64,000 nt of DNA from Alphaproteobacteria bacterium (GTDB taxonomy: Bacteria > Pseudomonadota > Alphaproteobacteria > Rhizobiales > Devosiaceae), in NCBI GenBank assembly GCA_018818925.1, contig JAHJQZ010000159.1, positions 1-64,000 of the forward strand, written 5' to 3'. Positions 48,310 to 64,000 of this stretch are shown here, in pieces. The notes beneath the pieces were generated by a model. The model saw only the letters and a program-made list of their open reading frames with translations. It did not search any database and was not told where the DNA came from. Each line of letters begins with the position of its first letter. Position 1 is the first letter of the stretch. The translations under genes were made by a program, and so were the position numbers.

Positions 48310-50703
<2,394 letters not shown>

Positions 50704-50730
50704 GCCGCGCCATCCACAGAGTACCGGCCC

Positions 50731-51054
50731 ATGAAGCTCATCGTCGTCGATCACGAAGGCAACGAACACGCGCTCGAGGCGTTGGAGGGCTGGCGGGCGA
50801 TGGAAGTCATCCGCGACTGGGGCTTCGACATCAAGGCCGAATGCGGCGGCGCCTGTTCCTGTGCCACCTGTCACGTCTTTGTCGACGACACCTGGATTGA
50901 AATGCTCGACACCGCCAGCGAGGAAGAAGAGAACATGCTCGACATGGTGCCCGATGTCGAAGCCAATTCAAGGCTTTCGTGCCAAATCCTCATGTCCGAC
51001 GCCCTTGACGGCCTCAGGCTGAAGTTGGCGCCGAGCGCCCGGGGCGACGAATGA
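50731..51054 (+). CDS. [2Fe-2S] ferredoxin, partner of the adjoining reductase
   Basis: This 107-residue plant/adrenodoxin-type ferredoxin has cluster ligands Cys38, Cys44, Cys47 and Cys84, with an extra Cys42 inside the loop (ECGGACSCATCH). It is similar to the ferredoxin at 44775 but distinct in sequence. It overlaps otsB by 4 bases (ATGA). Its place after the FNR gene suggests that it carries electrons to CysI. Confidence 0.93.
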   Translation: MKLIVVDHEGNEHALEALEGWRAMEVIRDWGFDIKAECGGACSCATCHVFVDDTWIEMLDTASEEEENMLDMVPDVEANSRLSCQILMSDALDGLRLKLAPSARGDE

Positions 51055-51785
51055 TCGAGACGATCCCGCCGGCGCTGACCGGCGCCAATGCCCTGTTTCT
51101 CGATTTCGACGGCACACTGGTCGGCTTCGCCCGCATTCCGCGCGACGTGACGGTCGCACCGCGCCTGGTGCCGACGCTTGAAAGGGTGCGCGACCGGCTC
51201 GGCGGGGCGCTCGCCATCGTCACGGGACGCGAAATCGCCAACGTCACCGAAATGCTGGCGCCATTGGTGACGCCGGTGGCGGGCAGCCACGGCGCCGAGC
51301 GAAGGCGGCCCGACGGCGGCATCGAGACGCCCGGCGCCGATGTCGCGGCCGAGGCGGCCGAAATCGCCGCGCGCTTCCGCGCCGAGCTGGGCGACATCGA
51401 CAACATGATCATCGAGCACAAGGTCTATTCGGTCGCTCTGCACTTTCGCAACGCGCCCGCGGCCGAGGACCGCGTCCGCGCCGCCGCGCATGCGGTGCTC
51501 TCGCATCGGCCCGACTGGGAAGGCACGCCGGGCAAACTGGTCGTCGAGGTGCGTCCCGCCGCCTTTTCAAAGGGCAGCGCCGTCCGCGCCTTCATGGCCG
51601 AACCGCCCTTTGCCGGCCGGGTGCCGGTCTTTGTCGGCGACGACGTGACCGACGAGGCGGGCATGGAAGCCGCCGCGGCGCTGGGCGGATTCGGCATCAA
51701 GGTCGGAACCGGTCAGACGCTGGCGCGTTATCGGCTCAGCGGTCCGGACGAGGTTCACGCCTATCTCTCCGCCTTCGCGGACTGA
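51051..51785 (+). CDS. otsB: Trehalose-6-phosphate phosphatase
   Basis: This 244-residue HAD-superfamily phosphatase makes trehalose from trehalose 6-phosphate. Motif I is LFLDFDGTLVGF with the Asp nucleophile, GSHGAERRRPDG is the cap-side motif, and VFVGDDVTDEAGMEAAAALG is motif IV. It overlaps the ferredoxin gene by 4 bases and is followed by otsA after 53 bases, so trehalose synthesis is appended to the sulfur/ferredoxin cluster. Confidence 0.95.
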   Translation: MIETIPPALTGANALFLDFDGTLVGFARIPRDVTVAPRLVPTLERVRDRLGGALAIVTGREIANVTEMLAPLVTPVAGSHGAERRRPDGGIETPGADVAAEAAEIAARFRAELGDIDNMIIEHKVYSVALHFRNAPAAEDRVRAAAHAVLSHRPDWEGTPGKLVVEVRPAAFSKGSAVRAFMAEPPFAGRVPVFVGDDVTDEAGMEAAAALGGFGIKVGTGQTLARYRLSGPDEVHAYLSAFAD

Positions 51786-51838
51786 ACGGACTGGATCGTC
51801 ATCGGTTCCGCCGCACCGCCCGCGGGCTCCGGCACAGG

Positions 51839-53359
51839 ATGGCGAAGGTGGACGAACTCAATGATTTTGCAGACCCGGCGACAGATGCTACAAGCAGCCA
51901 TGATGTCATCGATTTTGCCGGACCGCGCGCCGAGCCGGACAGCCCCGTGAAGCCCATAATCGTTGTTTCCAATCGCATCCCGGGCAAGCGCCCGGCCGCG
52001 GGCGGTCTGGCGGTGGCCCTCAAGAAGGTGCTCGGTGAGCGCCAGGGGTTCTGGTTCGGCTGGTCCGGCGGCTTTTCCGAGGACTATACCGACGAGGCGC
52101 AATTCTCGACCATCGACGGGCTGAGGATCGGCGGCCTCGACCTGCCCGAAAAGGATTACCACGGCTATTACGAGGGCTTTGCCAATTCCGTGCTCTGGCC
52201 GGCTTTTCACCACCGGCTCGATCTGATCAAGATCGCCGAGGAGGATTACGACGCCTATTGCCGGGTCAATGAAGCCTTTGCCAAGGCGCTGATCAACGAG
52301 GCCAGCCCGGAGCACACCATCTGGGTGCACGACTACCACCTCATTCCTCTCGGCCGCGAACTGCGCCGGCTCGGGGCGAAGAACCGCATCGGCTTTTTCC
52401 TGCACATCCCGTTCCCCGGCCCGGAAATCTTCTCCGCCGTGCCGCATTCGGCCGACCTGCTGTCGGCACTCGCCGCCTACGATCTCGTCGGCCTGCAGGC
52501 ACAACGCGACGTCGAAAAACTCAAGACCCAGTTCGAGAGCGCGACGCTGCCCTCGGTCAGCGACCAGACCCAGGCGCCGCCGGAATTCCTGCCGCATTCG
52601 GTCGATGCCTTTCCCATCGGCACCGATCCGCAGGCCTTCCGGCAGCTCGTCGGACGCCCGCGCGCCATGCGGTCCGAAGAGCAGATGGTGGCGTCTCTAG
52701 CCGGGCGCGCCCTCATTCTCGGCATCGACCGGCTCGATTATTCCAAGGGCCTGCCGGAACGCATCGCCGCCTACGACAAGCTCCTTGAGAAATTTCCGAA
52801 ATGGCGGCGGCGCGTCCACATGCTGCAGATCGCGCCGTCCTCCCGCGACACGATCGAGCAATACAGGGACATCAGCGAGGCGCTCGACCTGGCCTGCGGC
52901 CGGCTGATGGGGCGGTTCGCCGAGCCGGACTGGGCACCGATCAACTACGTCAAACGCGCCTATCCGCAAACGGCGCTGGCCGGGCTCTATCGCGCCGCCC
53001 ATGTCGCCTTGGTGACGCCTTTGCGCGACGGCATGAATCTGGTCGCCCATGAATTTCTCGCCTGCCAGGATCCCGAGGATCCCGGCGTGCTGGTGCTGTC
53101 GCGTTTCGCCGGCGCCGCCGAGCTGTTTGCCGAGGCGCTGCTGGTCAACCCGCACAATATCGAGGAGACGGCCGACGCCCTCGATCAGGCCCTCGCCATG
53201 TCGCTCAAGGAACGCAAGGCGCGCTGGGTGGCGTGCATGGAGATGGTCGAGCGGCACGATGTCGATCACTGGGCCGGCGATTTCCTCGGCCGGCTCGCCG
53301 ACGTGCCGCCCTGGGACGCCAAGATGGGCAAGGTCCAGTCTGGCGACAAGGCAGACTGA
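51839..53359 (+). CDS. otsA: Trehalose-6-phosphate synthase (GT20)
   Basis: OtsA transfers glucose from UDP-glucose to glucose 6-phosphate. The 506-residue product has [20 protein letters not shown] at the acceptor-binding N-terminus, [14 protein letters not shown], and the donor-binding [20 protein letters not shown]. With the ATG at 51839 it has a 37-residue acidic extension; a GTG at 51947 gives the usual family start. It forms a trehalose pair with otsB. Trehalose protects against osmotic and drying stress. Confidence 0.94.
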
Positions 53360-53389
53360 CGCCGCCGCCCCGCCGGTCCTAACGCGTCC

Positions 53390-54355
53390 CTACAGCCCGT
53401 CGAACAGCGCCGTCGACAAATAGCGCTCGGCAAAGCTCGGGATCACCGTGACCACGGTCTTGCCGGCAAATTCCGGCCGCGTCGCCACCTTGAGCGATGC
53501 CGCCACGGCCGCGCCCGAGGAAATGCCACCCGGAATGCCCTCGTAGCGGGCCAGGGCCCGCGCCGTTTCGAGCGCCGTGTCGTTGGAGACGGTGACGACC
53601 TCGTCGATCACCGAGCGGTCGAGAATGTCGGGCACGAAGCCGGCGCCGATGCCCTGAATCTTGTGCGGGCCGGCGGCGCCGCCGCTCAGCACCGGGCTCG
53701 CCTCCGGTTCGACGGCGAAGATTTTGAGGTCCGGCCTGCGCAGCTTGAGGACCTGGCCGACGCCGGTGATGGTGCCGCCGGTACCGACGCCGGCAACGAA
53801 GGCGTCGATTTCGCCCCGCGTGTCGTTCCAGATTTCTTCGGCGGTGGTTTTGCGATGAATGTCCGGGTTGGCCGGGTTCTGGAACTGCTGGGGAATGATG
53901 GCATGGGGATTGTCGCGCGCCAGTTCCTCGGCGCGGGCGATGGCGCCCTTCATTCCGGCCGGGGCGGGCGTCAGCTCCAGTTCGGCGCCGAGCAGGGCGA
54001 ACATCTTGCGCCGCTCGATCGACATGGATTCCGGCATGACGAGGATCAGCCGATAACCGCGCGCCGCCGCCGTGAAGGCAAGCGCGATGCCGGTATTGCC
54101 CGAGGTCGGCTCGATCAGGACCGTCTGCGGCCCGATCCGGCCCTCGGCCTCGAGGGCGTCGATCATGGCGACGCCGATGCGGTCCTTGACGCTGGCGATC
54201 GGGTTGAAGAACTCGAGCTTGGCGAGGATGGTCGCGTCGAGCCCTTGCAGTTGTGGCAGCCGCTTGAGGCGGACGAGGGGGGTATCCCCGATCGTTTCGG
54301 TAATCGAGTCATAAATGCGCCCGCGGCCAGGTTGGTGGATGGCGATGTCGGTCAT
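53390..54355 (-). CDS. cysK: Cysteine synthase A (O-acetylserine sulfhydrylase)
   Basis: This 321-residue PLP enzyme joins sulfide to O-acetylserine. The PLP lysine lies in [16 protein letters not shown]. The substrate loop [19 protein letters not shown] and the phosphate-binding [13 protein letters not shown] are intact. It completes the sulfate-to-cysteine route that begins with cysG-cysH upstream, but it is on the opposite strand and convergent with otsA, so it is separately regulated. Confidence 0.96.
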
Positions 54356-54592
54356 TGTTTGTCTCCGAGTGGCGGACGCGGCATAGGCGCATTCGCGGTA
54401 GCACGTGCAACCAGGCTAGACCCGCACGACCGAAATCGGGAGCCTCGCGCAGAAAAACGCCTTCCGGTCATAACCGGGGCGCGGCGAAAACCCTGCCGCT
54501 CCCGCCCGGCCGGGCGCAATGTTTGTTCCCTTGCTGCCAAATTCTGTCGGTCGGCACCACTATCTCCACCTTCATCGGCGGAGGACGCTCGC

Positions 54593-54971
54593 ATGAACCG
54601 TGGGGAACTCGAACGTTTTGTCGTTGCGGCCAAGAAACAAACCTATGTCGGCGATGGCGAACCGTCGCCGGCCTGTCGGCCGGGTTCGCATGATCTCGTC
54701 TGGGAAAGCGGCGGCTGGCGCTATCTCGATAGCTATTTCGGCGGCACCGATTTTATTGGCCACCAAGGCCGGGCTGACGACCAAAAGCGCCCTCTCGGCT
54801 TTGTACGATGAGGGCCGCTTTCTCGGCGGCTGGCGCTGGGAAGGACGTTACGGCGTCTATGAGGATGCATCGCAAGGCGATGTCGCGCATTTCGCCGGCC
54901 GCGAGATCATCCGCTGCTCCGATTCAATTGCCTATCGGCTCGACCATCATGGCGGATTGATCAGGACTTAG
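54593..54971 (+). pseudogene. DUF5680 gene broken by an internal deletion and frameshift
   Basis: The first part reads in frame from the ATG at 54593 (MNRGELERFVVAAKKQTYVG ... DSYFGGTDFIG) and stops at 54811. The family C-terminus continues in another frame, LSALYDEGRFLGGWRWEG to DHHGGLIRT, ending at 54971. The middle segment expected between FIG and the second part (roughly 30-35 residues, with WAMNYYGR in relatives) is missing. The join lies near 54757-54785. A ribosome site and normal codon use remain, so decay seems recent. It overlaps the ycjF-like gene by 11 bases. Confidence 0.75.
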
Positions 54972-55986
54972 TCTTGGTCTGGGTCTTCTCAACCTTTACC
55001 AGCTCCGGCACGAAATCCATAACCACCGGCTGCCTGAGCACGGAAAAGGGCAGGGGTCGCGTCACCCGCATGGCGGCGATGCCGACCCGGACGGTCATCA
55101 ACCCGTTGACCAGACCCTCGCCGAGCCGGGCCGATAGCCTTGCCGCCAGCCCCTGTCCGAGAAGCTGCTGGATGACGCTATCACCGAGCGCCACGCCGCC
55201 GGTCACGGCAAGATGGCCCAGAATAGCGCCGAACAGCCGCCACGAGCCGAACAGCCCGGGCTGGACGCCGTAGAGCACGGCGATGCGGCGCGCCAGCCGT
55301 ATGCTCTCGAAGGCGACGAAGGCGATATCGACGAGCGCGCGCGGCGAGATGGCGGTCACGAGCGTCACCCGCCGCGCCGCCGCCGCCGTCAGCGCCCGCG
55401 CCCGCGCATCGAGCGGGGTCATCAATGCCCGTTCGGCCGCCTGGATGCGGTCGCTGGCGTCGACGATGTCGCCGAGCACCGGCATGAGCGAGGACTGGGC
55501 CCGCGCCAGGTCCGGCCGGCCGGCATAAAGCGCCGAGACGGAGGAAACGACGGCTTCGCCCTCCGCCATGCGATTGCTGTCGAGCGCCGCCGCCGCCCGC
55601 TCGCGCAGGCGCCCGAGCTTGTTGAGCCGCCGCACGGACAGCCATTCGCGCCAGGCCAGCGCCAGGACGGCGAAGACCAGCACGGCGACGATCGCCGTGC
55701 CGACCCAGCCCAGCCATTCATAGCGGGCGAACAGATCGGCGATAAGCTGCTGCGCCGCGAGACCGAGGCTCAGCGAGACGACGAGACTGAAAGCCGAGAG
55801 GGCGATCCGCAACAGCCAGTTGCGCCGGCGCGGCGGCGGCGCCGGTTCGAGCGCCGTGCCGGCCTCGTCCGCCGGTTCGGGCGCTTCCGGGATGTCCTCG
55901 GCAGAGAAGATCTGCGGCGCGCGGCCGGCAGATGCCTCGTCCGCCGGCTTGGCCGGGCCGACGGGCTGGGCGACGGGCTTTCTCAT
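54961..55986 (-). CDS. YcjF/TIGR01620-family (DUF697) membrane protein
   Basis: A 341-residue protein with a disordered acidic N-terminus (1-55), two membrane helices near 60-82 and 93-112, and a DUF697-like C-terminal region with ISPRALVDIAFVAFESIRLA and GVALGDSVIQQLLGQGLAA. It is the usual partner of YcjX-type GTPase-like proteins and overlaps that gene by 4 bases. The pair is linked to envelope and heat stress in enterobacteria. Its role here is inferred. Confidence 0.85.
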   Translation of the reverse strand: MRKPVAQPVGPAKPADEASAGRAPQIFSAEDIPEAPEPADEAGTALEPAPPPRRRNWLLRIALSAFSLVVSLSLGLAAQQLIADLFARYEWLGWVGTAIVAVLVFAVLALAWREWLSVRRLNKLGRLRERAAAALDSNRMAEGEAVVSSVSALYAGRPDLARAQSSLMPVLGDIVDASDRIQAAERALMTPLDARARALTAAAARRVTLVTAISPRALVDIAFVAFESIRLARRIAVLYGVQPGLFGSWRLFGAILGHLAVTGGVALGDSVIQQLLGQGLAARLSARLGEGLVNGLMTVRVGIAAMRVTRPLPFSVLRQPVVMDFVPELVKVEKTQTKTKS

Positions 55987-57440
55987 CTGAGCTTGTCTCC
56001 GATCAGGAAATCCACGGCCCGGTCGAGCCTGATATGGGGCAGGACCGGCAGTCCGTCATCGGTCCGGCCGAGTTTTGACGGCGGCCGGAAGCGCATGAAA
56101 TTGACGAGAGGCGCGTCGCCGTCGCGGCTGAGCGCCTGTTCCGGCGTCTCCGGCAGGTCGCCGGGGAACAGGGCGATCTCGGTCCGGCCGTCATATTCGG
56201 CACCGTCGAGCCTCTCGCCCGCTTCCGGCGTGCCGATGATGACATCGAGCGGGCTGCCGTCATGGCTGATCCGGCCCTCGCGCGTCGCCCGGACCGCCGC
56301 CATCGCCAGCGAACGCGTCTCGGCTCCAGCGAAGCGGGCGCGGCGCCCGGCGCGGGCCACGAGCCGGTTGAGGATGGCGTCGAGCCGGTCGTGCGAGGTG
56401 TGGTGGATGTGGTCGGCCTTGGACGCGGCGAACAGGATCCTGTCGATGCGCCGCGCCACGATGCCGCTCAAAAGCGAGCCGGAACCCTGACGGAAGCAGG
56501 CGAGAATGTCGGAAAGCGCCGTTTCGAGATCGGCAACGGCGCCGGCGCCGGCATTAAGTGGCTTCAACACGTCGACCAGTACGATCTGGCGGTCAAGCCG
56601 AGCGAAGTGATCGCGAAAAAACGGCTGCACAACGACGTGCTTGTAGGCTTCGTAGCGCCGCTCGAACATCCTGTAGAGCGATTTGTGTCCCACCGGGCCG
56701 TTCGGCGCCGGCAGCGGCGCGAAAGTCAGGGCCGGCGAGCCTTCGAGATCGCCCGGCATGAGAAATCGCCCCGGCGTCAGCGTCGACATGGCTTGCGCCT
56801 CGGCCCGCGCCGCCCGCAGATAGGCGGCGAAGGCGCCGGCAATGCGTTCGACGGTGGTTTCGTCGGCCGGCGACGTCGCGTCCATGCCGGACAATTCCTG
56901 GAAAAATGGTTTGGCAGCCGCTTCACTGTCCAGCCGGGCAGCCCGCGTCAGGGCGATTTCGCTCCATTCGGCAAAGCCCAGCGATAAAAGCGGCAGATCG
57001 AGCAGCCATTCGCCGGGATAGTCGACGATGTCGAGATGCACCTCGCCTGGTCCCATCATGCCGGCGATCCACCTGGCGCTCTGGTATTTGAGGGTAAGCC
57101 TGATCTGCGAGATGCGGCGGGTCGAATCCGGCCAGACCGGATCGGCGCCGGTGAGCGTCGCGATATGCTGCTCGTAGGCGAATCGCGGGACGTGGCGTTC
57201 GGGATGCTCGTCGAGCGCGGCGCCGATCAGCCGACCTTCCGCCTGCGCGGCGAAGCCCGGAAGCCTGACGCCGTTGATGAGGGCATGGACGAGCGCGGTG
57301 ATGAACACCGTCTTGCCGGCGCGACTGAGGCCGGTGACGCCGAGCCTGACGGTCGGAACCAGACCGCCGGTCGCTGATTCGGCCAGATTTGCCAGAATCA
57401 GTCCGACCTCGTCGACCAGCGAAATTGGGGCAGAAGACAT
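55983..57440 (-). CDS. YcjX-family GTPase-like stress protein
   Basis: This 485-residue P-loop protein has GVTGLSRAGKTVFITALVHA as Walker A and HLDIVDYPGEWLLDLPLLSL downstream, both hallmarks of YcjX. FGFAEWSE-like and RRIDRILFAASKADHIHH (TKAD-like) segments follow. I chose the ATG at 57440 (MSSAPISLVDEVGLILANLA); a longer frame upstream is not family-like. It is cotranscribed with the DUF697 protein (ATGA overlap). Confidence 0.9.
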   Translation of the reverse strand: MSSAPISLVDEVGLILANLAESATGGLVPTVRLGVTGLSRAGKTVFITALVHALINGVRLPGFAAQAEGRLIGAALDEHPERHVPRFAYEQHIATLTGADPVWPDSTRRISQIRLTLKYQSARWIAGMMGPGEVHLDIVDYPGEWLLDLPLLSLGFAEWSEIALTRAARLDSEAAAKPFFQELSGMDATSPADETTVERIAGAFAAYLRAARAEAQAMSTLTPGRFLMPGDLEGSPALTFAPLPAPNGPVGHKSLYRMFERRYEAYKHVVVQPFFRDHFARLDRQIVLVDVLKPLNAGAGAVADLETALSDILACFRQGSGSLLSGIVARRIDRILFAASKADHIHHTSHDRLDAILNRLVARAGRRARFAGAETRSLAMAAVRATREGRISHDGSPLDVIIGTPEAGERLDGAEYDGRTEIALFPGDLPETPEQALSRDGDAPLVNFMRFRPPSKLGRTDDGLPVLPHIRLDRAVDFLIGDKLR

Positions 57441-57577
57441 GCGTTTTTCCGATCCGGGCCTCCGCCGAAGGTAGGAGTTCGCGCCGGAAAAGCAAGGCGG
57501 CACAAAGCGAAGCAGCACGGGCAACGCTTTTGAAAAATGCAAGAGCCACAATAGTGCCGGCCACAAAAATGAACCAA

Positions 57578-57605
57578 TTGGAAGCTGTCACGAAAAGGAT
57601 ATAAT
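57578..57605 (+). promoter_or_regulatory. Consensus-like promoter of a short transcription unit
   Basis: TTGGAA, a 16-base spacer and the perfect -10 TATAAT (57600-57605). Perfect -10 boxes are rare in this GC-rich sequence. Transcription should begin near 57612, about 32 bases before the 20-codon frame. Confidence 0.65.
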
Positions 57606-57643
57606 TCCCAACGTACTGCCTCTGTTTGGACAGGAGCTCCATT

Positions 57644-57706
57644 ATGGCAAACGACCCGAAGAAACCCGCTGCAAAGCCCGCAAAGCCCGGCGGCCCCAAG
57701 AAGTAG
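57644..57706 (+). CDS. Tiny 20-residue Lys/Pro/Ala-rich protein
   Basis: The frame MANDPKKPAAKPAKPGGPKK ends at TAG. AGGAG lies 8 bases before the ATG, a strong ribosome site. The peptide is strongly basic with a (K-P-A) pattern and no membrane segment. It is the only frame in a transcription unit of about 210 nt bounded by a consensus promoter and a strong terminator. It may be a real small protein, or the RNA itself may act as a regulator that carries a short frame. Confidence 0.6.
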   Translation: MANDPKKPAAKPAKPGGPKK

Positions 57707-57786
57707 CCATAGTCCGCGGTCGCGCGCGCTTTGCCCGAGCAGGGCCGGCCCGCGCGAAATGACTGAAGCGCTTCACGAACAAGTAC

Positions 57787-57822
57787 GGCCCACCGAGCCA
57801 TCGGCGGGCCGCATAGTTTTTT
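57787..57822 (+). terminator. Rho-independent terminator of the short unit
   Basis: GGCCC-A-CCGA pairs with TCGG-C-GGGCC (9 bp, one A-C mismatch, loop GCCA), followed by GCATAG and six T. It is one of the few T-run terminators in the window. Confidence 0.8.
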
Positions 57823-57952
57823 AGGTGTGCGATCCCCGGATCGTTCCCCTCCCGATACCACCGGCCGAGACGGTCCGCCTACAATCGCAAGACGGGCCGC
57901 ATCGAAATCGGCAAGTCGGACCGGCGGCGACGGGTCGATGGTCAGTCGGGGC

Positions 57953-58894
57953 CTAGAGCCACTCGTTCTCGCCGTCCGGCGTGCCGATCTTGGCCATGTC
58001 GTAGGGCGTGGTCTGGTAGATTTCGTTGATCCAGTTCTGGAAGAACAGGTGGGAATGCGATCGCCAGACATTGAGCGGCTCGCGCGTCGGGTCGTCGTCG
58101 GGGAAGTAGTTGACCGGCAGCGCCGGCGCGAGCCCGGCCTTGATGTCGCGCGCATATTCGTCGGCCAGCGAACGATTGTCGTACTCGAAATGGTTGAGCA
58201 TGTAGAGGGCCCGGTGCTTGTGGTCCTCGAGCATGCAGATGCCGACCTCGTTGCTGTCGATCAAAACTTCGAGCGAGCCGTCATCGGGAAGGGTCGAGCG
58301 GTCGATGTCGTTGTGCCGGCTGACCGGAATGGCGAAATCGTCGGAAAAGCCCCTGAGATAGGGTGAGTTCGGCCGCATGTTCTGGTGGCGGTAGATGCCG
58401 ACCGCCTTTTCACGCCGGCGCTTCCTGAGGACGCCGTGGAAATGGTAGAGCGCCGCCTGCACCCCCCAGCAGATGAACAGGGTCGAATGGACGTTGGTCT
58501 GCGTCCAGTTCATGATCTCGACCATTTCAGGCCAGTACCTGACCTCCTCGAACGGGATGTGGGCGATCGGCGCGCCGGTGACGATCAGCCCGTCGAACCT
58601 GCGGTCCCGTATTTCCTCCCATTTCGAATAGAAGGTGTTGAGATAGTCCTCGGAAGTGTTCTTGGCCTTGTGGTCGGAAATCCTGACAAGGGTGAAATCG
58701 ATCTGCAACGGCGAGGCCCCGACCAGCCTGGCGAACTGGGTCTCGGTCCGCTCCTTGTTGGGCATCAGGTTCAAAAGGCCGAACTGCAGCGGACGGATGT
58801 CCTGGCGCGCGGCGCGCGAGGAATCCATGACGGCGACGCCCTCGGCTTCGAGGATCTTGCGGGCGGGGAGGTCGTCGGGAATGCGTATGGGCAT
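57953..58894 (-). CDS. metA: Homoserine O-acyltransferase MetA
   Basis: This 313-residue HTS-family enzyme acylates homoserine in methionine synthesis. The catalytic Cys is in FICWGVQAALYHFHG, and the His/Glu part follows at SRHNDIDR and HFEYDNRS. The residue that separates succinyl- from acetyl-CoA users (Gly in E. coli, Glu in B. cereus, just after GAP-x) is Ala here (GAPIAH), so the donor cannot be read from it. Its start ATG is at 58894, 67 bases after the ATPase gene on the same strand. I see no SAM riboswitch in the short gap. Confidence 0.93.
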   Translation of the reverse strand: MPIRIPDDLPARKILEAEGVAVMDSSRAARQDIRPLQFGLLNLMPNKERTETQFARLVGASPLQIDFTLVRISDHKAKNTSEDYLNTFYSKWEEIRDRRFDGLIVTGAPIAHIPFEEVRYWPEMVEIMNWTQTNVHSTLFICWGVQAALYHFHGVLRKRRREKAVGIYRHQNMRPNSPYLRGFSDDFAIPVSRHNDIDRSTLPDDGSLEVLIDSNEVGICMLEDHKHRALYMLNHFEYDNRSLADEYARDIKAGLAPALPVNYFPDDDPTREPLNVWRSHSHLFFQNWINEIYQTTPYDMAKIGTPDGENEWL

Positions 58895-58950
58895 CTGGGT
58901 TCTCGGTTGGATGGCGCGGAAGGGCGAAAATTCCGGCGATCGCGCGTGAT

Positions 58951-58975
58951 CCCGTCCGCCTTCAGGCGGTACGGG
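58951..58975 (-). promoter_or_regulatory. Hairpin with the ATPase stop codon in its loop
   Basis: On the minus strand CCCGT-A-CCGCC pairs with GGCGG-ACGGG; the loop TGAA contains the stop codon of the ATPase gene. It lies 57 bases before the metA start and could slow readthrough into metA or stabilise the upstream mRNA. Confidence 0.4.
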
Positions 58976-59828
58976 CTGCGATCGCCCCGCGCATGAGCGC
59001 GAGGAAATCCGCGCCGTCGCGAACCCTGGCGGCATCCCTTGCCTCGACGACATAGCCAAACCGGTCGGCCAGTTGCTGGTAGCGCGGCAGCCGATGCTCG
59101 AGAAGCGCTTCGAATCCCCAGGCGCCGAACCCGGCCGGATCGACCTGATCGTCCTCGGCGATGGCGTTGATCGCCTTGTACTCGTTCCATTTGCGAACGA
59201 GGAAGTCCGGCGGATAATACATCGGCTTTGGCGACTTCTTGAACCGGCGAACCAGCTCGGCGGCGTCCCCGTCGGTGCCGCGGATATAGACAAGGGCCGT
59301 GTGTGCCTGAAGGGTCGCGATCACCGGATCGTCGTCGCGCATGGGATCGACTACCTCGATCAGCGAGCCACCGGTATCGCAGACGAAATCGGTGTATCCG
59401 TAAAGCGCCTCGGCCCGTTCGATGAAATAGGGCACATCGCCGAAGGCGGCGATCTCGGCGACCCGGTGCTGTTCCTGGCGGCGCTGGTATTCGGCAAGAT
59501 TGATGCCGCCGCGCGCCGGATCGCCGGGGGTGCCGAGATAAGTCGAGAGCGGATCGAGATTGTTGAAGGTGATGTTGGACGAGATGTAGATCGAGTCCGA
59601 GATCAAAAGGTCCCTCAGGAACGGCACTTTCATCGCTTCGCGCTTGAAATTGTCGACGATGAACTCGCCCATGTAGCGCGTGCCGATGCGGTAATCGCCC
59701 GAATAGTGAAACCAGCCGTCGCGCCTCAGGATGGCGCTCAGCCGCGTCTTGCCGACCCCGGCCATGCCGAACAGCGTCACGGCGTGACGGTCGGACGAAA
59801 CGAAATCCTCGGCGCGGTCGAACAGCAT
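58962..59828 (-). CDS. P-loop ATPase of unknown function
   Basis: A 288-residue soluble protein with a clear Walker A loop, FGMAGVGKTRLSAILRRDGW. YRIGTRYMGEFIVDNFKREA and VCDTGGSLIEVVDP follow. The rest resembles nucleotide-kinase-like ATPases found in alphaproteobacteria, but I cannot name a function. AAGGGAAGC lies upstream of the ATG. The gene precedes metA by 67 bases on the same strand, so both may share a transcript. Confidence 0.75.
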   Translation of the reverse strand: MLFDRAEDFVSSDRHAVTLFGMAGVGKTRLSAILRRDGWFHYSGDYRIGTRYMGEFIVDNFKREAMKVPFLRDLLISDSIYISSNITFNNLDPLSTYLGTPGDPARGGINLAEYQRRQEQHRVAEIAAFGDVPYFIERAEALYGYTDFVCDTGGSLIEVVDPMRDDDPVIATLQAHTALVYIRGTDGDAAELVRRFKKSPKPMYYPPDFLVRKWNEYKAINAIAEDDQVDPAGFGAWGFEALLEHRLPRYQQLADRFGYVVEARDAARVRDGADFLALMRGAIAARTA

Positions 59829-59983
59829 GGCTCAGCTTCCCTTGCGCTGAGGTGTTTAGGACAAACCCGGTGCATTCTCAAGCATGGCAATTTCTGCCGG
59901 GCTGGCGGCAGATTCGATCCGGCCGATACGGGGCATGCCCGGACACTGTGTCAAATTTCCTTTGAAAATCAATGCTGTTCGGT

Positions 59984-60001
59984 TTGGCATCCGGCTTGCA
60001 T
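59984..60001 (+). promoter_or_regulatory. Sigma-54-type (-24/-12) promoter of flgE
   Basis: TTGGCAT-CCGGC-TTGCAT matches the RpoN consensus: GG and GC separated by ten bases, with TGGCA and TTGCA both intact. It lies 54 bases upstream of the flgE ATG. Confidence 0.65.
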
Positions 60002-60054
60002 TGAACGAAGTGAACAGGTGCATCCCGCACGTATTTGGGACAACGGAGTACAAC

Positions 60055-61839
60055 ATGGGTATCTATGGCGCACTGGCGACGGCTGTGACCGGGCTGAGGG
60101 CCCAGTCATTCGCGCTCGAGAACATCTCGGGCAACATCGCCAATTCGCAGACGACCGGCTACAAGCGCATCGAGACCGACTTCCTCGACTTGATCCCGGA
60201 CGCTCCGGTGAGTCGGCAGACGCCCGGCGCCGTGATCGGATCGTCGCGTGCCACCAACACGGTTGGCGGCGACATCAAGACGGCGTCCTCGGATACCTAT
60301 ATGGCCCTCAACGGCAATGGCTTCTTCGTGGTCGAGCAAAAGATCGGCCAGAACGACGGCAATGCCGTGTTCGGCGGCACCAGCTACTACACCCGCCGCG
60401 GCGATTTCGATCTCGACCGCGAGGGTTATCTGGTCAATGGCGCCGGCTACTACCTCAAGGGCCTGCCGATCAACCAGTCGACCGGCAACATCTCGGGCTC
60501 GGTGCCCTCGGTCATCCAGATTTCCAATTCCTTCCTGCCGGCGCAGCTGACGACGCGCGTCGACTATCAGCTCAACCTGCCGCAATTGCCCAAGACCGCG
60601 GCCTACGACCCCAACACGGTCAATAGCGAGCTGATGAATTCCGCGGACTTCGTCGCCACGGCGGCGGACGTCACCGCGACGGCCACCGGCACCACCGCTC
60701 TCGTCGGCGCCAACGACGCCGACAGCGCCGGCGGCCCGCCCGCCGGTCCGTTCACCGATGGCGACACCTTCACCATCAATATCGACGGCGTCGCCGTCAC
60801 CTTCGAGGCCGAAAGCGCCGGCGGCGTGGCGAGCGGCAACATCGCCTTCGACATCAATGGCGACATCGACACCGCCCTGGCGAGCCTCCAGACCGGCCTG
60901 CAAGCCAATGGCGGCACCGCTGCCGCCGATGCCACTGTCGCGCTGAGCGGCGGCAATGTCAGGTTCACGCTCGGCACCAACCTGACCTCGTCCTTCACCC
61001 TCACGGACGGAACCGGCACGCCGCTCGCCGCGGTCGGCGTCGCGGCCGGCGACTATACCTATACCGACAGCTCCATCGGCGTGCAGGTGCCGACGGTGAC
61101 CGGGGCCCAGTCGGACCTGTTCGTGTCCGAATCGATCGCCGGCGGCGCCATTACCGTCTACGCCTCCAACGGCGCGCCGGTGAACGTGCAATTGCGCTGG
61201 GCCAAGGTCGACAGCGCCGCGCGCGGCGGCACCGACACCTGGCGGCTCTACTACCTGACCAATTCCGAGGCCGGTTCGGCCGATATCGCCTGGCGCGACG
61301 TGGGCACCAATTACAGCTTCGCCGCCAACGGCGCCCTGACGCCGAACGTCGTCTCGACCACGGTCAACAACCTGACCGTCAACGGCGTCACCATCGGCAA
61401 TGTCAATCTGCAGCACAATACCGGCGGCGTCACCCAGTTCGCCGACGCCAACGGCACCAGCCAAGTCACGGCGCTGAGCCAGAACGGCTATGCGGCCGGC
61501 GAGTTCGTCTCGGTGACCATCAACGACGACGGCCGTGTCGTCGCCTCCTATTCCAACGGCCAGCAGGTCGAACTGGCCCAGGTGGTGACGGCGCAGTTCA
61601 GCGCCGCGAATTCCCTCAAGCGCCTCGATGGCGGCATATTCGCCGCGACCTCGGAATCGGGCGAAGCCATTCTCGACAGCGGCGGCGGCATCGTTTCCGC
61701 CTCGCTCGAATCCTCGAACACCGACATTTCGGAGGAATTCACCAAGCTGATCGTGACGCAGCAGGCCTATGCCGCGGGCACGCGCATCGTGTCGACTTCC
61801 GACCAGATGTTGCAGGAAGCGCTGAACATGCTGCGCTGA
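60055..61839 (+). CDS. flgE: Flagellar hook protein FlgE
   Basis: This 594-residue hook subunit begins MGIYGALATAVTGLRAQSFA with the rod/hook motif NISGNIANSQTTGYKR, and ends QQAYAAGTRIVSTSDQML, the paired coiled-coil ends of axial proteins. The centre contains a large variable Gly/Thr/Ala-rich region exposed on the hook surface (about residues 200-390). Export would be through the flagellar type III system, so no signal peptide is present. GGAG precedes the ATG at 60055. flgK follows 139 bases downstream and flgL after that, as a hook operon. Confidence 0.94.
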   Translation: MGIYGALATAVTGLRAQSFALENISGNIANSQTTGYKRIETDFLDLIPDAPVSRQTPGAVIGSSRATNTVGGDIKTASSDTYMALNGNGFFVVEQKIGQNDGNAVFGGTSYYTRRGDFDLDREGYLVNGAGYYLKGLPINQSTGNISGSVPSVIQISNSFLPAQLTTRVDYQLNLPQLPKTAAYDPNTVNSELMNSADFVATAADVTATATGTTALVGANDADSAGGPPAGPFTDGDTFTINIDGVAVTFEAESAGGVASGNIAFDINGDIDTALASLQTGLQANGGTAAADATVALSGGNVRFTLGTNLTSSFTLTDGTGTPLAAVGVAAGDYTYTDSSIGVQVPTVTGAQSDLFVSESIAGGAITVYASNGAPVNVQLRWAKVDSAARGGTDTWRLYYLTNSEAGSADIAWRDVGTNYSFAANGALTPNVVSTTVNNLTVNGVTIGNVNLQHNTGGVTQFADANGTSQVTALSQNGYAAGEFVSVTINDDGRVVASYSNGQQVELAQVVTAQFSAANSLKRLDGGIFAATSESGEAILDSGGGIVSASLESSNTDISEEFTKLIVTQQAYAAGTRIVSTSDQMLQEALNMLR

Positions 61840-61926
61840 AGCCGGAGGAAGTGAAACGTGAAGGTCAACGAGACAGGGCGTGAACCGGGCCGAAGCGGCC
61901 GGGAACGCGGTCTGTGATGGGTCGGT

Positions 61927-61960
61927 CCCGGTCCGGATGTAGCAGCCTTTCCGGACCGGG
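61927..61960 (+). promoter_or_regulatory. Strong hairpin between flgE and flgK
   Basis: A perfect 10-bp stem CCCGGTCCGG / CCGGACCGGG with a 14-base loop ends 8 bases before the flgK ribosome site. No T-run follows, so partial termination, mRNA processing or translational control are all possible. A 19-codon frame with GGAGGA (GTG at 61858) precedes it. Confidence 0.45.
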
Positions 61961-61978
61961 CCGCGCCAGGAGTGGAGA

Positions 61979-63817
61979 ATGGGTCTTTCCGTAACCCTTT
62001 CGAATGCCTTGAGCGGCATGCGCACGACCCAGGACGGCCTCACCGTCCTGTCGCGCAACGTCGCCAATGCCGGCGCCAGCGGCTATCACCGCCAGAGCGT
62101 CGTCATCAAGGACATGAATGGCGGCTCGAGCACCTATTCCAGTTTCGTCGGTGTCGAGCGCGCCTTCGTCTCATCGCTCGAACGCGCCTATGTGCGCGAA
62201 GTCGGCGACATGGGCTATGCCGATGTGCGCAACACCTTCCTCGAGCGGCTGGAGGTCGCCTTCGGCAAGCCGGGCGACGCCAACTCGCTCGACACGCTTC
62301 TGCAGGATTTCACCAATTCCATGCAGGCGCTGGCGGTCAGCCCCGAGGACTATGCCACCCGCGCCACCACCATCTCTTCGGCGCAGACGCTGGCCCAGGC
62401 GCTCAACGGCCTGTCCGGCACCGTCCAGGAGCTGCGCCAGGAAACCGAAACGCAGATCGCCGCCGAGGTCGACACGCTCAACCAGAGCCTGCAATCGTTG
62501 CGCGACATCAATGTCAGGCTGTCCGACTATTCGCTCGACGAGGCCTCGCGCCTCAGCGTGCTCGACGAACGCGACCGGCTGGTGGCGCGGGTATCCGAAA
62601 TCGTCGACACCCAGGCCGTCTACCGCACCGATGGAACGGTGGCGCTGATGACCAAGTCCGGTCTCGGCCTGCTCGACCAGGGGGCGACCACTTTCACCTT
62701 CGCACCGGCCGGTGCCCTCAGCGCCAATTCGCTCTACGCCATCGACGACGCCGAGAACGGCGTCGGCGTCCTGACGGCCTATACACCGTCCGGGTTGCGG
62801 CTCGACGTGCTCGACCAGAAAATCGTCCAGTCCGGCCGGCTCGCCGCGCTCGTCGAGTTGCGCGATACCACGCTGGTGCAGACCCAGGCGCAGCTGGACA
62901 GCATCGCCGCGGCGCTGGCCCAGGCACTCAATACCAATGAGACCGCGGGAACGGCGGTGACCGGTCCGCCGGACGGATTCGATATCGGCATGGCCGACAT
63001 CGCCAAGGGCAACGAGGTCTCGTTCAGCTACGTCCAGTCCGGCCAGAGCCGCGATGTCCGAATCGTTCGGGTCGACGACCCGTCCAAGCTGCCGATGGAC
63101 TACAGAACGCCGGGCGGCGAACGCGTCATCGGCGTCGATTTCTCAGGCGCCGCCGGCTCCGTCGCCGCCCAGCTCAACGCCGTGCTCGGACCGGGCATAA
63201 GTTTTGCCGACGACGGAACGACGCTGAGCATTCGCGACGACGGCGGCGTCAATTCCACGATCACTTCGGCCAGCAAGAGCACCAGCTCGACGGCGACGCA
63301 AGGGGCAGGGCTCGCGCTCAACCTGTTCACCGACCTCGGCGACCAGGCCTATACCGGCGCGCTCGATGGCGAACCGCAGGCGCGCGGCTTTGCGGCGCGC
63401 ATCACCGTCAATTCGGTCATCGCCAACGACAATTCCCTGCTGGTGCAGTATGATTCCGGCGGTACGCTCGGCGATCCGGCCCGCGTCGACTACATGCTCG
63501 ACCGCATGGAGACGGTCAATTTCCGCCCGGACAACCAGCAGCTCAAGGAGCTCGGCGGCTATTCGCTGTCCGGCGACCTCCAGAGCCTCGTCCAGCAGGT
63601 CATCAATTACCAGGGCGACATGATCGCCAACGCCAAGTCGGCGCTCGACACCCAGCAGATCGCCCTCGACGCGGTCGAGTTGCGCATGGATGCCGAATAC
63701 GGCGTCAGCATCGACGAGGAAATGGCGCGCCTCATGGAATTGCAGAACGCCTACGCCGCCAGCGCCCGCGTCGTTTCGATCGCCCAGGAGCTGATCGACG
63801 CATTGATGAACATTTAG
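61979..63817 (+). CDS. flgK: Flagellar hook-associated protein 1 FlgK
   Basis: This 612-residue protein forms the hook-filament junction. The N-terminus LSNALSGMRTTQDGLTVLSR with NVANAGASGYHRQ and the C-terminus MARLMELQNAYAASARVVSI are the paired axial coiled-coil segments. AGGAGTGGAG precedes the ATG. It lies between flgE and flgL in the hook operon. Confidence 0.94.
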   Translation: MGLSVTLSNALSGMRTTQDGLTVLSRNVANAGASGYHRQSVVIKDMNGGSSTYSSFVGVERAFVSSLERAYVREVGDMGYADVRNTFLERLEVAFGKPGDANSLDTLLQDFTNSMQALAVSPEDYATRATTISSAQTLAQALNGLSGTVQELRQETETQIAAEVDTLNQSLQSLRDINVRLSDYSLDEASRLSVLDERDRLVARVSEIVDTQAVYRTDGTVALMTKSGLGLLDQGATTFTFAPAGALSANSLYAIDDAENGVGVLTAYTPSGLRLDVLDQKIVQSGRLAALVELRDTTLVQTQAQLDSIAAALAQALNTNETAGTAVTGPPDGFDIGMADIAKGNEVSFSYVQSGQSRDVRIVRVDDPSKLPMDYRTPGGERVIGVDFSGAAGSVAAQLNAVLGPGISFADDGTTLSIRDDGGVNSTITSASKSTSSTATQGAGLALNLFTDLGDQAYTGALDGEPQARGFAARITVNSVIANDNSLLVQYDSGGTLGDPARVDYMLDRMETVNFRPDNQQLKELGGYSLSGDLQSLVQQVINYQGDMIANAKSALDTQQIALDAVELRMDAEYGVSIDEEMARLMELQNAYAASARVVSIAQELIDALMNI

Positions 63818-63827
63818 GACACCGAAC

Positions 63828-64000
63828 ATGCAGATATCCAGATCGCTGTTTCCGGTTGGTGGCGCGTATAAATCGGTGCAATCTCTCAATCAGGTGCTGC
63901 AAAAACTTCAAGTGCAGCTTGCAACTCAGGAGAAGGCCGCCACCCTTTCCGAACTCGGCACGGACCGCGTGTTCGACCTGACGCTTCGCTCGCGGCTGTC
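63828..64000 (+). CDS. flgL: Flagellar hook-associated protein 3 FlgL, N-terminal part
   Basis: The first 57 codons read MQISRSLFPVGGAYKSVQSL ... QLATQEKAATLSELGTDRVF, the flagellin-like N-terminal helix of FlgL. It starts 10 bases after the flgK stop and runs out of the window in frame. It is too short for more than the family call, which the order flgE-flgK-flgL supports. Confidence 0.85.
   Translation, partial: MQISRSLFPVGGAYKSVQSLNQVLQKLQVQLATQEKAATLSELGTDRVFDLTLRSRL

Follow-up and report, generated by a model that had tools for sequence, protein, structure and literature searches.

The locus between metA and ycjX

The window, the whole stretch of 64,000 nucleotides that was analysed, comes from a genome of 3.18 Mb in 177 contigs (G000 in our samples). 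At 57578–57822 on its forward strand, in the gap between a convergent metA and a divergent ycjX, lies what would be a one-gene transcription unit encoding a cationic microprotein of 20–29 residues (Table 1). The product of metA has a Pfam HTS match, and the ycjX-like neighbour is a DUF463 gene followed by a DUF697/TIGR01620 gene. The gene adjoining metA encodes a protein of 288 aa with GMAGVGKT as a P-loop-like motif; this protein gave no Pfam or NCBIfam match at E 0.001.

Table 1. Features of the candidate unit and adjoining genes in the window, with counterparts in the nearest relative, G001
Feature	Position	Strand	Basis or counterpart in G001
Sigma-70-type promoter match TTGGAA-N16-TATAAT, 10/12 (TTGGAA 57578–57583; TATAAT 57600–57605)	57578–57605	+	Sequence; weak 8/12 counterpart
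Conserved leader TTGGACAGGAGCTCCATT with Shine–Dalgarno AGGAG (57632–57636)	57626–57643	+	Comparison with G001
Short ORF, MANDPKKPAAKPAKPGGPKK, 20 aa (ATG 57644; stop TAG 57704–57706)	57644–57706	+	L002:1520–1609
3′ untranslated stretch, 79 nt, extra hairpin potential	57707–57785	+	No counterpart
Terminator-like hairpin (57786–57811) and T6 (57817–57822)	57786–57822	+	Outer stem CGGCCC/GGGCCG recurs
metA	57956–58894	−	
Gene for 288-aa protein	58965–59828	−	Similar ORF adjoins metA (by eye)

The promoter has the sequence and coordinates given in the original prediction, but on its own the match is within chance: one match of at least 10/12 was seen in the 64 kb on both strands compared to a shuffle mean of 0.67, and five of at least 9/12 compared to 8.09. 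Across the region 50000–64000, three promoter-like sites were found versus 1.6 in shuffles, and seven terminator-like sites versus 10.1. The combination of a promoter, AGGAG or GGAGG, and ATG occurs once in the window and at least once in 8 of 100 shuffled windows, which is suggestive but inconclusive by itself; it is conservation in the nearest relative that lifts the unit above chance. For the further claim that the expression signals are better than those of most neighbouring genes, the comparison covered the promoter only. AGGAG and ATG are both where they were predicted, with a spacing of 7 nt instead of the 8 claimed. A small UGGA/UCCA hairpin with the Shine–Dalgarno sequence in its loop is possible in the leader; its fold is unremarkable in the window (−2.4 kcal/mol, 155 of 200 shuffles equally good), and the G001 leader folds at −7.3 kcal/mol (10 of 200). 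The SD-bearing hairpin is at most a lead.

Downstream, the terminator-like hairpin has 10 pairs with one 1 × 1 mismatch and a predicted energy of −20.9 kcal/mol, and a strong hairpin is present at this end in both genomes, with none of 200 shuffles equally good in either. The predicted hairpin and T-run both exist, but the T-run begins 5 nt past the stem, so that a strict scan gave no terminator on the + strand. On the − strand, the metA side, the hairpin (57784–57813) does scan as terminator-like and may, judging from its sequence, serve metA as well. Together with the convergence of the short ORF and metA, which is common to both genomes, this would suit a device that influences metA through transcription towards it or through a terminator used from both sides, in which the ORF merely protects the RNA. 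However, ∼130 nt separate the end of the predicted RNA from the stop codon of metA, leaving overlap only by read-through, and a terminator requires no conserved peptide; we regard such a device as very unlikely.

The counterpart in the nearest relative

The closest MetA to that of the window, at 82% identity, comes from a MAG, Devosia sp. isolate ih3; the other 79 named relatives kept, mostly Devosiaceae, reach 66–77%, and we place the window in this family. G001 is either ih3 itself or a virtually identical genome, as our search model finds identical coordinates in G001 and in G512, the genome that holds the ih3 locus (L074). At the same place beside metA, G001 carries a 29-codon ORF encoding MATSGPKKPAASAPKKAAPAKPAGGAKKK, preceded by a promoter counterpart at a similar position (TTGGCG-N17-TATTCT, from L002:1447); a promoter as good as this one occurs in 346 of 3000 random 140-nt draws. 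In the stretch AGGAG-N-TCCATTATGGCAA, AGGAG and TCCATTATGGCAA are identical in the two genomes, whereas the flanks of the ORF align poorly. In a blind MAFFT alignment of the DNA, the gaps within the ORF are 3, 18, and 6 nt, all multiples of three, compared to 38, 6, 8, and 63 in the flanks, and differences are concentrated at the third codon position (2, 5, and 9 of 21 at positions 1, 2, and 3). The peptide alignment scores 52.0 against a mean of 25.4 for shuffles of equal composition, with 3 of 5000 as high, and the two peptides are therefore alike beyond composition. With two members, tests for selection have little strength, and an alignment can look better than it is when the sequence is of low complexity. 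The link between the window and G001 rests on place, leader, and alignment, as the peptide searches did not make it at their cut-offs.

Comparison of the two genomes shows that the start site, reading frame, peptide motifs, and terminator stem are kept at the same place, and from these sequence features we infer that the unit is transcribed and translated. A reading frame conserved with its Shine–Dalgarno sequence and start codon is thus found, in two genomes. The small-protein gene, one of the readings originally proposed, is supported by what G001 has kept: the ribosome site and start of the ORF, its frame, and the peptide motifs. Outside the unit, G001 has extra genes between the short ORF and ycjX (L154:7325–7820), including one for a DUF1328 protein, and the corresponding gap in the window is too small for them. 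A GGAAC-N16-CGTT motif lies upstream of these genes on their strand, and we take it to resemble an EcfG general-stress promoter.

The conservation does not extend to the 3′ stretch, where the stop codon and the terminator stem are 79 nt apart in the window and 24 nt in G001. This bears on the other reading originally proposed, a regulatory or dual-function small RNA in which the short ORF is secondary and target pairing falls to the 3′ hairpin region. The promoter and terminator matches flank an RNA of ∼210 nt, as such a reading would have it, and the predicted hairpin potential near 57716–57756 is real in that the segment can fold. The fold of the whole 213-nt RNA, in contrast, is not unusual (z −1.59, 17 of 200 shuffles equally good), and neither is that of its G001 counterpart (z −0.75). 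The 3′ stretch, with its extra hairpin, is not common to the two members, and no Rfam family (Rfam 15) was matched at the gathering score, so that a known Rfam RNA was rejected as well; the nearest approach we record, a Guanidine-III match at 57838–57901, reaches 13.8 bits against a cut-off of 36, is outside the unit, and was rejected. Since what is kept is the start and the coding part, and not the 3′ stretch, the unit reads as a small-protein gene, and a regulatory RNA seems unlikely.

Distribution among relatives

To describe the distribution, we used a model of the leader and start built from the window and G001 genes, which would miss a homologue with another leader; it was run with stricter filters in the large samples, and the family, order, and class samples overlap. 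In the family, 2 of 136 genomes were found at E <1e-10, G000 and G001, the next best match having an E-value of 0.030. The order sample returned only G000 among 397 genomes (next best 0.026; G001 was absent from the listing), and the class sample only G000 among 385, where the next best match, at 0.0069, is not a K/P/A ORF. Among the eight genomes of the nearest named loci, only that of L074 was found. Likewise, when the 900 nt behind metA (801 nt at one locus) were inspected, a K/P/A-rich short ORF was present at 1 of the 80 named loci, again L074.

A DNA search of 101 relatives matched 90 at E up to 1, nearly all with what look like short chance pieces, and the only informative match was G001 (E 0.0015). 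The window peptide matched 12 of these 101 genomes at E up to 1, its own included and G001 not among them. Neither the G001 peptide (matches in 29 of 136 genomes, cut-off E 0.5) nor a two-row profile (51 of 397, cut-off E 0.2) found G000. These peptide and profile searches have little power, and no convincing third member emerged from the 101, 136, and 397 genomes; we give more weight to the leader-and-start model. A pattern search gave matches with at most two mismatches in 51 of 136 genomes (a choice of matches was translated, and matches without a locus were left out), and matches with none in G000 and G001 only. Finally, among 8499 ATG-initiated ORFs of 15–40 aa in 234 records (1.07 Mb, both strands, overlapping copies included), 82 have a Shine–Dalgarno sequence and 10 are K/P/A-rich; these 10 are all copies of the window or G001 gene, each with a Shine–Dalgarno sequence. 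Of the features expected to be conserved in relatives, the peptide and terminator stem are kept in G001 and the promoter is weakly matched at a similar place; no counterpart was picked up in relatives further away.

In the MetA tree, the window groups with L074, L078, and L082 (100/98), and L078 and L082, both on long branches, fall with L074 (99/94) inside this group. The gene is absent from L078 and L082, both in the 700 nt inspected behind metA and genome-wide by the leader-and-start model, which points to losses there or to misplaced tree rows. Downstream of metA, L078 and L081 have a flagellin-like ORF (by eye), and in most neighbours inspected ycjX is found there.

Such a distribution, with the gene recognised in two genomes and not seen within 900 nt behind metA at 79 of the 80 named loci, and the difference in length between 20 and 29 aa could also be expected of a young or decaying gene with no present function, either what is left of a longer K/P/A-rich protein or an ORF that arose recently. 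Yet the start region and motifs are kept although MetA is at the identity given above and the flanks align poorly, and third-position changes are in excess, so we consider this reading improbable. The unit would instead be restricted to a small branch of the Devosiaceae, and we conclude that it is quite probably a real small-protein gene.

A predicted short cationic peptide

Both peptides are cationic and K/P/A-rich (K at least 20%, K+P+A at least 60%), with six lysines and one aspartate in the 20 residues of the window peptide and eight lysines and no acidic residue in the 29 of the G001 peptide. Across the change in length, both retain PKKPAA, PAKP, and the terminal lysines. Neither peptide matched Pfam or NCBIfam at E up to 10, where such short queries have little power, and the G001 peptide had no match in the PDB or in a plasmid search. 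Type I toxin peptides are hydrophobic and membrane-spanning, and a toxin of this type was rejected since no hydrophobic stretch is visible on inspection of either peptide. An amino-acid leader peptide or attenuator was also rejected, as the next gene, metA, is on the opposite strand and no co-directional gene lies directly behind the terminator.

Because these motifs are kept while the length changes, we propose that the peptide is probably disordered and binds electrostatically to a polyanion such as DNA or RNA, in the manner of KPAA-rich tails. This is a first guess at the mode of action, made from composition, and we hold it tentatively. The KPAA-repeat C-terminal tails of AlgP and PhaF and the histone H1-like Hc1 and Hc2 of chlamydiae are likewise cationic and rich in lysine, proline, and alanine, with KPAA-type motifs. 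Neither AlgP/PhaF nor Hc1/Hc2 gave a family profile match here, and the short ORF encodes no N-terminal domain with a long repeat tail: its product is 20–29 aa in total with one KPAA and no domain, and AlgP is much longer. According to the part of PMC9239181 that we draw on, AlgP is 352 aa long, 124 of them in an N-terminal domain, and contains 25 perfect KPAA repeats; disorder and an H1-like character are predicted for its tail, and DNA binding in vitro is reported for KPAA peptides. The portion of PMC2848022 used here gives Hc2 lysine-rich pentamers and a length of 165–237 aa. A bolder version of the proposal is a free-standing mini-histone, a KPAA-type peptide of 20–29 residues that would coat DNA, RNA, or polyphosphate without a folded domain, its translation perhaps tuned by the SD-bearing leader hairpin (UGGAC-AGGAG-UCCA). 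We find this doubtful, the more so because the window leader hairpin is no more stable than shuffles.

The closest parallel in gene type is with lineage-restricted small proteins of Alphaproteobacteria such as those of Sinorhizobium meliloti, whose genes are, in the part of PMC10117765 considered, also very short and poorly annotated. The same part reports Ribo-seq or Western evidence for them, whereas the short ORF described here is known from sequence. Some of them, such as SEP5, are described there as conserved in one genus only; SEP5 lies in a 5′ UTR and is a possible leader peptide, unlike the present ORF, which has no co-directional gene directly behind it. A limited literature search found no paper on Devosia small proteins or short ORFs.

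In summary, the gene is lineage-restricted, narrowly distributed, and ordinary in kind, and it is a modest finding. It adds a likely gene of 20 codons, so small that annotation would usually miss it, and offers a small test case of whether a bare K/P/A peptide, normally the tail of nucleoid or granule proteins, may be useful alone.
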